DNA from: Syntrophomonadaceae bacterium
GTDB taxonomy: Bacteria > Bacillota > Syntrophomonadia > Syntrophomonadales > DTU052
DNA: 52,419 nucleotides
Assembly (NCBI GenBank): GCA_012728655.1
Contig: JAAYEQ010000063.1
Coordinates: forward strand, 1-52,419
Reading direction: 5' to 3'
The position numbers and the translations under genes are program-made. Under the pieces are notes generated by a model, which was not told the DNA's origin, made no database searches, and saw nothing but the letters and a program-made list of their open reading frames with translations. Below are positions 10,501 to 37,466 of this stretch, in pieces. Every line of letters begins with the position of its first letter. Position 1 is the first letter of the stretch.

Positions 10501-10893
10501 TTGATCAAAGTAAGGGATATAATGTCCAGTCCGGTAATTACGGTTTCACCACGCAATTCCATTCAGCAAGCTCTGGAGATAATGAAGGAAAACGATACCC
10601 GACGCCTGCCGGTAACTGATGGGGGGCAACTGGTGGGTATATTGGTTCAGCACGACATTGAAAAGGCGTTGCGCAGCCCGGGGAGGATACCACATACCCC
10701 GGTAGAATGGGTAATGACCAAAAAAGTCCATTATGTGTCCCCGGATCAACCGGTAAATGAAGCTGCCCGCATGATGACCTATTATAAGATTAGCGCCCTG
10801 CCGGTAATTGATTCCGGAAATCTCGTGGGTATTGTAACTGATACAGATATGCTGCACTTATTAATTGAAATGCTCGAACAGAAGCAAGCCTGA
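10501..10893 (+). CDS. Tandem CBS-domain protein
   Basis: A 130-residue protein made of one pair of CBS motifs (about residues 1-60 and 68-128), each beginning with a V-R/M-D-I-M-type segment (VRDIMSSPVITV; VEWVMTKKVHYV) and including the typical DTRRLPVTD and ISALPVIDSGNLVGIVTDTD. Such Bateman modules bind adenine nucleotides and act as energy sensors. The TTG at 10501 is preferred because AGGAGGG stands before it; the earlier in-frame TTG at 10483 would lie upstream of that site. It follows glgA and may sense nucleotide status, but no partner is fused, so its target is unknown. Confidence 0.88.
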   Translation: MIKVRDIMSSPVITVSPRNSIQQALEIMKENDTRRLPVTDGGQLVGILVQHDIEKALRSPGRIPHTPVEWVMTKKVHYVSPDQPVNEAARMMTYYKISALPVIDSGNLVGIVTDTDMLHLLIEMLEQKQA

Positions 10894-10939: not shown

Positions 10940-11150
10940 CAGTATAGAAAAATAGTAGGCCCACAGGCCATCTATATCAAAACCGGTAAAAACCGAATCT
11001 GAAGCTCACGAATGAGCAGGAAGCCTGTGGGCCTGATGGAAGCCAGCGACGTAAACTCCTCAGAAGGAGCGGTCAGGATTTATTCCACCTAAAGTGGAGA
11101 CCTGACCTTGGGTCCGAAGACCGGTCGCTGGCTTCTGCGTATATTATGAC
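10940..11150 (+). ncRNA. Structured element, copy 1 of a tandem pair (candidate RNA)
   Basis: No gene fits this stretch, but long helices nest as in a folded RNA. P1: 10955-10966 with 11021-11032 (12 bp). Inside it are small hairpins 10982-10993 and 11002-11015. P2: 11037-11048 with 11122-11133 (12 bp). Within P2: hairpin 11054-11067, P4 11069-11075 with 11099-11105 (capped by 11082-11096), and a GGTC-CGAA-GACC tetraloop hairpin at 11109-11120. The element ends in TATTATGACCA (11140-11150). A second, diverged copy follows at 11232-11430 in the same order. Strand is assigned by the neighbouring genes only. I do not recognise the family. Confidence 0.6.
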
Positions 11151-11231
11151 CACCGCCCAAAGATTCTATGCAAAAAATAACTTGTTTTTGGGTGGAAATA
11201 TAAAAGGCCCGGGTGGGTCCGGACCTGGGAA

Positions 11232-11430
11232 GCGGTATAAAAGCGTAGAAAACCCGCAGATTCCCGAATCAAATCGATATACCAGAATCGAAATTGAAGC
11301 TCTGGGAAGAGCCGGGACATCTGCGGGTCATCTGGAGACCGGCGGTAAGAGCGTCCAGGAATTACTCCGCAAGGGAAACCTGGACTTTGGGTCCGAAGAC
11401 CACCGCCGGCCTCTATCGGTATTATGACCA
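11232..11430 (+). ncRNA. Structured element, copy 2 of a tandem pair (candidate RNA)
   Basis: It has the same architecture as copy 1 with different bases in the stems. P1: 11252-11261 with 11319-11328, extended by TCCCG (11262-11266) with CGGGA (11313-11317). Inner hairpins are TCGAT/ATCGA (11274-11291) and GCTC/GAGC (11299-11312). P2: 11335-11346 with 11402-11413 (11 of 12 pairs). P4: 11353-11359 with 11379-11385. The GGTC-CGAA-GACC hairpin (11390-11401) and the terminal TATTATGACCA (11420-11430) are identical to copy 1. P1, P2 and P4 differ in sequence on both strands yet still pair, which is covariation. The small hairpin next to P4 in copy 1 is missing here. An extra hairpin (11208-11229) precedes it. 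Confidence 0.6.
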
Positions 11431-11703
11431 GGGGATTACAAGTGTATACAACCTGCAATGCATAATTTTTTGGTTGGAAAACAATAAATTTGCAAGTAAC
11501 CGATTTGAGGGTTGGCGGGAAGGGAACCGGTGTGCGTCGGAAGACCCATAGCCAGATTGCGAACCCGCCGAAACTAACTGAGATTTTGTACGAGCTCGAT
11601 TCTGGGTTCAGAGTTGGGCTTTTAATTTTTTCGCCCCTTTTCTCGACCGGGAGGTTGAAAACGGGGCCAGACGAATAACTTCCTGTTATTTCTGTTTATC
11701 GCC
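11431..11703. other. Non-coding interval with a possible third, decayed element
   Basis: No credible gene. GGCGGG (11514-11519) can pair with CCCGCC (11564-11569), and a GTC-GGAA-GAC tetraloop hairpin lies at 11535-11544, echoing the loop region of the two elements upstream. The match is too weak to call a third copy. Confidence 0.3.
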
Positions 11704-11794: not shown

Positions 11795-12247
11795 ATGTAC
11801 AAACCCAGTTTTGTTCATTATCTCACCAAGCTGTTGGTAGACATAATGTTCTACGGTGGGATCGTCTGCTGTATACTGGTGCCGTTTTTGGTCAAGTGGG
11901 GCAGCCAATACTTTGGCTACGAGGAGAGCGTCAGAATTCCATTCACTGTTGTCCTGTTTTGCTCGGGCATTGCGGCGGTTTACATCATGTACAATCTCAA
12001 GACGATGTTCAAAACCCTTTTGGGGGGCAACCCGTTTGTCTGGGAGAATGTCAGCAGTTTTCGGAAATTGGCTGTTGCCAGCTTTGTAATTGCCATACTT
12101 TTCCTGGTCAAGTGTTTCTTCTGGTTTACGCTGGCCACGGCGTTAATCGTTATTGTATTCGTTATTGCCGGCCTCTTCTGCCTGACCCTGAAAGATGTTT
12201 TCAAACAGGCCGTTTACTACAAAGAAGAAAACGATTATACCGTGTGA
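11795..12247 (+). CDS. DUF2975 membrane protein
   Basis: A 150-residue integral membrane protein with about four hydrophobic helices (roughly residues 15-37, 52-72, 93-112, 115-135), matching the DUF2975 family often encoded just before a YozG-like HTH regulator in Firmicutes. Its biochemical role is unknown. ATG 11795 is chosen because GGGAGG lies eight bases upstream; the in-frame TTG at 11780 precedes that site. It is followed after 15 bases by the HTH gene and then by a DUF4173 membrane protein, forming a three-gene operon behind the palindrome at 11704-11732. Confidence 0.85.
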   Translation: MYKPSFVHYLTKLLVDIMFYGGIVCCILVPFLVKWGSQYFGYEESVRIPFTVVLFCSGIAAVYIMYNLKTMFKTLLGGNPFVWENVSSFRKLAVASFVIAILFLVKCFFWFTLATALIVIVFVIAGLFCLTLKDVFKQAVYYKEENDYTV

Positions 12248-37388: not shown

Positions 37389-37466
37389 CGGGGTGTAGCG
37401 CAGTTTGGCTAGCGCGCCTGCCTTGGGAGCAGGAGGTCGAAGGTTCAAATCCTTTCACCCCGACCA
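37389..37466 (+). tRNA. tRNA-Pro (anticodon TGG)
   Basis: A complete cloverleaf. Acceptor CGGGGTG (37389-37395) pairs with CACCCCG (37456-37462), followed by discriminator A and encoded CCA. D-stem GCGC/GCGC, anticodon stem CCTGC/GCAGG with loop CTTGGGA (anticodon TGG, proline), and T-arm GAAGG-TTCAAAT-CCTTT are all present. Confidence 0.97.

Follow-up and report, generated by a model that had tools for sequence, protein, structure and literature searches.

To our knowledge, few small RNAs (sRNAs) of the forespore are known, and nearly all of them come from Bacillus. CsfG and Bvs196, which are both controlled by sigma-F and sigma-G, are the functionally closest known counterparts of the two elements reported here, which lie in tandem between a CBS-domain gene (end at 10893) and a DUF2975 gene (start at 11798) in a 52,419-nucleotide (nt) stretch of DNA, the window, from a Syntrophomonadaceae bacterium (assembly GCA_012728655.1, contig JAAYEQ010000063.1). 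CsfG of B. subtilis was initially annotated as an opposite-strand leader (RF00516, "ylbH leader") and was later assigned to a reverse-strand transcript by Northern blot (PMC3574147); no mRNA targets of CsfG were known as of a 2022 paper (PMC9147052). Bvs196 of Bacillus velezensis, named S547 in B. subtilis, is a forespore sRNA that depends on sigma-F and sigma-G and has a conserved, stable fold (PMC9147052).

The elements of the window are very probably forespore sRNA genes on the minus strand. In our best reading, they belong to a new family outside Rfam: compact sRNAs of the forespore with an invariant core, an internal loop of two against six bases (2x6), that is probably protein-binding. 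They resemble CsfG in having first been read on the wrong strand, and the lesson is the same, namely that near-palindromic structured RNAs are easily misread for strand. With the RF00516 model, neither the window nor nine homologous loci gave a match; among 41 related genomes, there was none above the cut-off, and no weak match at the present loci. CsfG sits between ylbG and ylbH, whereas the present RNAs have CBS, HAD, amidase/membrane and OYE-type genes as neighbors, and their core, a closing helix with the 2x6 internal loop, is a further difference. Judged by the RF00516 model and the gene neighbors, they do not appear to be members of the CsfG family. CsfG carries its C/U-rich stretches within loops or between helices; the present RNAs contain C/U runs, mostly in paired positions. 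Bvs196/S547, set against the present RNAs by description only, differs in its length of 294 nt and in having been described in Bacillus. In the open literature, no paper was found that connects Syntrophomonas with noncoding RNA and sporulation. That a covarying family occupies a single locus throughout an order of syntrophic anaerobes would point to the importance of forespore RNAs in distant spore formers as well, and the invariant internal loop of the family provides a concrete, testable site.

Tandem elements, strand and promoters

The two copies, at approximately 10946-11152 and 11236-11430, have an identical helix order and share the sequences GGTCCGAAGACC (11111-11122 and 11390-11401) and TATTATGACCA (11142-11152 and 11420-11430). 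Each unit is larger than these first-noted spans, including a promoter up to 11171 or 11449, plus a tail. Compared with dinucleotide shuffles, copies 1 and 2 fold with z = -7.3 and -4.7 on the plus strand and with z = -8.9 and -5.2 on the minus strand. Their long stems differ by two-sided changes that preserve the pairing. In an alignment of nine copies from five genomes, made with MAFFT without structure, 97.4% of the cells are paired and 17 pairs have changes on both sides; none of 500 shuffles reached the score, and shifting the partner by one column reduced the pairing to below 48%. The same pair is kept behind the same CBS gene in three congeneric genomes, and a single copy is found in a second genus of the window's family. 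Copy 1 is closer to copy 1 of the sister species than to copy 2, which argues that the tandem duplication is old, not recent. A sequence-only reading had proposed two tandem elements of the same helix order under selection on RNA structure, and the folding, the covariation and the three congeners bear this out; the homologues with conserved pairing whose absence it had named as refuting are present, and the recent imperfect duplication it had likewise named does not fit the relationship of the copies.

In contrast, the plus strand implied by that reading could not be upheld, and the identical TATTATGACCA, taken there as an RNA end, corresponds instead, in reverse complement, to the -10 of a forespore promoter. 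Read on the minus strand, TATTATGACCA...TATGC gives GCATA-N18-CATAATA for RNA 1, with GTATA-N18-CATAATA for RNA 2, in both cases immediately before the first helix, and the GGTC-CGAA-GACC hairpin becomes GGUC-UUCG-GACC. Behind its last stem, RNA 1 has TACTATTTTTCT, and homologues end in CTTTTTTTT, CCCTTTTTG and similar sequences; the T-tracts adjoin the terminal stem in the minus direction only. RNA 1 and many homologues thus have a terminator of their own, consisting of a minus-strand stem and a T-tract. Furthermore, the order-wide conserved helices contain 28 G.U cells versus 4 A.C cells on the minus strand, and these numbers swap on the plus strand. The homologues also score far higher with a minus-strand model than with a plus-strand model, which is partly by construction. 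Since the fold is similar on both strands, energy alone cannot decide between them, and the promoter, the T-tract and the G.U asymmetry are decisive. Collectively, the assignment of the RNA genes to the minus strand is well supported by these sequence features.

In Clostridioides difficile, sigma-F promoters carry a G upstream of the -10, sigma-G promoters carry an A at its downstream side, and promoters with both, such as that of spoVT, may serve both factors (PMC3789822). The window copies read GGTCATAATA and contain both the sigma-F-type G and the sigma-G-type A; the promoter of RNA 1 satisfies the rules of both factors. The pattern GNATA-N17/18-CATNNTA occurs three times in the 52-kb window (both strands, 105 kb), twice exactly at these RNAs. 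A forespore-type promoter was found at the RNA start in all 33 elements checked from the 27 genomes accepted below, with G-N-ATA preceding the -10 by 17 or 18 nt, although the -35 was not part of the search model. All 28 aligned sequences share the terminal T and A of the -10, which sigma-G requires. The sigma-E -10 consensus is CATACAnT; the invariant TA ending therefore disfavors sigma-E and sigma-K, and promoters of these two factors were rejected. In the genome itself, sigG scores above the curated cut-off, and a sigF-like factor has SigF as its best family (297 bits for the trimmed sequence versus a cut-off of 321). The two clear genes of this genome for small acid-soluble spore proteins carry GTATA-N17-CATACTA, upstream of one ssp gene, and GCATG-N17-AACAATA. 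These promoters are of the same class but drive spore proteins, whereas the promoters described here would drive RNA. The forespore class, sigma-F/sigma-G, is thus a well-supported prediction for the promoters of both RNAs.

The RNA family and its conserved core

Three models were used for the searches. R1 was built on the plus strand and matched the family anyway since the -10 was included. R2, without the promoter, was too weak for other genera under the default filters and found genus g15 with the filters off. R3, a covariance model comprising the -10 and the core domain on the minus strand, was built from 12 sequences and run on 63 genomes of the order. With R3, 28 of the 63 genomes match at E up to 0.5, and 27 of these genomes, spanning 11 genera, were accepted; the weak match in the remaining genome, G005 (L107), was rejected for lacking the -35 and the core motif. 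In an alignment of 28 sequences, which was fitted to the model and agrees with smaller model-free alignments, 94.2% of the cells are paired, 25 of 28 pairs have two-sided changes, and none of 500 shuffles scored as high. A search of 398 genomes of the phylum with R2 says little on the spread beyond the order, the model being insensitive. An exact-pattern scan of 85,000 genomes gave convincing matches only in the known congeners and in the species of genome G004, while the other matches failed R3. Collectively, the RNA family and the conservation of its structure and locus appear well supported by these alignments and by the gene order described below.

The window and nine homologous loci were also scanned with Rfam 15. 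Nothing at the RNAs exceeded the gathering threshold, E up to 5 gave far-sub-threshold matches only, and the sole match in the window is a tRNA gene at 37389-37463 on the plus strand. This agrees with the sequence-only reading, which recognised no known riboswitch or ribozyme; its "unrecognised RNA type" stands as far as the missing Rfam family is concerned and can be sharpened to a putative forespore-specific sRNA. Its statement that no coding gene is present also agrees with the alignments, as no open reading frame (ORF) is shared among the members, three of which contain no ATG, GTG or TTG ORF at all, and the helices change in a compensatory manner.

The core of the family consists of a closing helix, a hairpin with an internal loop of two bases (UY) versus six bases (RUAAWU), and further hairpins that vary between genera. 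The best-conserved internal bases are located in or beside the loop (a G and a U, the UAA, and a C; 27/27), and the flanking helices change compensatorily. The RNAs are almost fully paired, with only short loops open. A second stem domain ending in a terminator was found in the window's family and in one member of a third family (G008); RNAs from the other genera consist of the core domain alone, about 110-140 nt long, often with a T-tract directly behind it. Most of the third inner hairpin is missing in RNA 2.

The tandem arrangement recurs, with two copies also in G008 and G021. The second copy of G021 (L098, 1721-1973) carries an insert of about 130 nt in the apical core hairpin and retains both halves of the internal loop. 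At L099 (1635-1790) and L100, a second forespore-type promoter on the minus strand lies just behind the RNA and is followed by the stem GCCAGTAAACT/AGTTTACTGGC and a T-tract, without the conserved loop; this unit is possibly a second, diverged sRNA. A second promoter behind the RNA is also observed at L085 (1634 in the RNA orientation). In addition, a ATCCGCTGG or ATCCGTTGG motif is located about 10 nt past the RNA 3' end at L095, L101, L103, L104, L105 and the second copy of L098.

Proposed function and competing explanations

We propose that the two tandem sRNA genes would be transcribed independently from the minus strand and that their RNA would accumulate in the forespore only. The working site is most likely the asymmetric loop UY/RUAAWU, the sole sequence-invariant inner feature amid freely changing helices, and this loop would bind a forespore protein. 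We read it as a protein-binding site because the compact fold leaves few free bases and the conservation sits in the internal loop; protein binding as the mechanism has, in our estimate, a little less than an even chance. A more far-reaching proposal, in which the RNAs form a new family with the 2x6 loop as a specific protein-binding site, act in the forespore through the binding or sequestration of a protein, or as a ribonucleoprotein stored in the spore, and not by mRNA pairing, and in which tandem second copies arose repeatedly, is tentative. The main alternative on mechanism retains the same RNA gene and makes it a trans-acting sRNA that pairs with forespore mRNAs via C/U-rich segments such as CUCCUU in the third hairpin and GUCCCUU in the core hairpin. 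In CsfG of B. subtilis, which co-purifies with Hfq, the loops are C/U-rich (PMC3574147), and C/U-rich runs recur in the present RNAs; however, these runs are mostly in the stems of nearly fully paired molecules, and among the unpaired bases, conservation is highest in the UAA of the internal loop and not in a C/U seed. We consider mRNA pairing plausible but short of probable.

Other explanations dispense with a minus-strand sRNA altogether. A bidirectional terminator between convergent genes, kept for termination only, would agree with the stem and T-tract and with the convergence of the element on a membrane-protein gene in 15 of 15 loci of the second family (f2), but termination needs neither a conserved promoter at exact spacing, nor an invariant internal loop, nor two tandem copies with separate promoters, which makes this explanation very unlikely. 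A riboswitch or leader on the plus strand, or a plus-strand noncoding RNA ending at TATTATGACCA, could draw on the stable plus-strand fold that any near-palindromic element has. However, the nearest co-directional start downstream is at 11798, about 370 nt away, the minus strand faces the oppositely oriented CBS gene, so that neither strand has the placement of a riboswitch or cis-leader, and the G.U/A.C asymmetry, the promoter, the T-tract and, partly by construction, the model scores of the homologues all favor the minus strand; we regard the plus-strand explanation as highly improbable. The chance that the transcript from the promoter is a forespore mRNA encoding a small peptide is close to negligible, even though sigma-G drives many small spore proteins, given the missing shared ORF and the compensating pair changes of the helices.

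Several observations weigh against the forespore sRNA genes proposed here. Over half of the 63 genomes of the order, including the complete genome G005, gave no convincing match with R3, and the hosts are mostly metagenome-assembled genomes. The -10 was included in R3, so its conservation in weak matches is partly by construction. In genus g15, the G typical of sigma-F is missing from the promoter, and the use of sigma-F may therefore differ between genera. The T-tract of RNA 2 is weaker than that of RNA 1. Furthermore, we infer minus-strand transcription in vivo, as well as the RNA ends and the forespore timing, from the DNA sequence.

Features and neighbors of the locus

Coordinates of the RNA genes and associated features in the window.
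Feature	Coordinates	Strand	Remarks
CBS-domain protein gene	10507..10893	+	Convergent with RNA 1; conserved locus neighbor
RNA 1 (copy 1), ~190 nt	10946..11136	-	Ends inferred: 5' 6-8 nt past the -10, 3' in the T-tract behind the last stem
RNA 1 second domain P1	10946..11034	-	12-bp perfect inverted repeat 10957-10968/11023-11034, then TACTATTTTTCT; terminator-like
RNA 1 core domain P2	11038..11135	-	12-bp closing helix, three inner hairpins; order-wide shared part
RNA 1 hairpin with invariant 2x6 internal loop	11078..11100	-	5' UC 11100-11099; 3' AUAAAU 11083-11078
Hairpin GGUC-UUCG-GACC	11111..11122	-	In RNA 1
RNA 1 promoter	11142..11171	-	-35 GCATA 11167-11171, 18-nt spacer, -10 CATAATA 11142-11148, GGT before the -10
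Terminator-like hairpin with TTTATATTT tail	11205..11226	-	Between RNA 2 and RNA 1 promoter; possible back-up terminator of RNA 2
RNA 2 (copy 2), ~180 nt	11236..11414	-	Same two-domain fold
RNA 2 internal loop, 3' side GUAAUU	11360..11365	-	
RNA 2 promoter	11420..11449	-	-35 GTATA 11445-11449, 18-nt spacer, -10 CATAATA 11420-11426

In f2, all 15 loci read (L066-L068, L088, L089, L092, L095-L099, L101 and L103-L105) have a two-gene operon convergent with the RNA. The operon, located at the 3' side of the RNA, encodes an NlpC/P60- or LnsA-like amidase and a small membrane protein of 150 amino acids without a Pfam match, and is possibly linked to the RNA in function. A CBS gene comes next after the operon in genera g20 and g21, and in g20 a HAD gene is located on the other side. 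Both genes flank the RNA, and their proteins share 50% (CBS) and 52% (HAD) identity between g20 and the window's family, which indicates one orthologous locus. A mobile element was considered and rejected, as no match was found in plasmids or phages and the locus is constant. Upstream of the DUF2975 gene of the window, a 13-bp stem with a TTAATTTTTT tail at 11592-11621 on the plus strand is a candidate terminator or attenuator of that strand.
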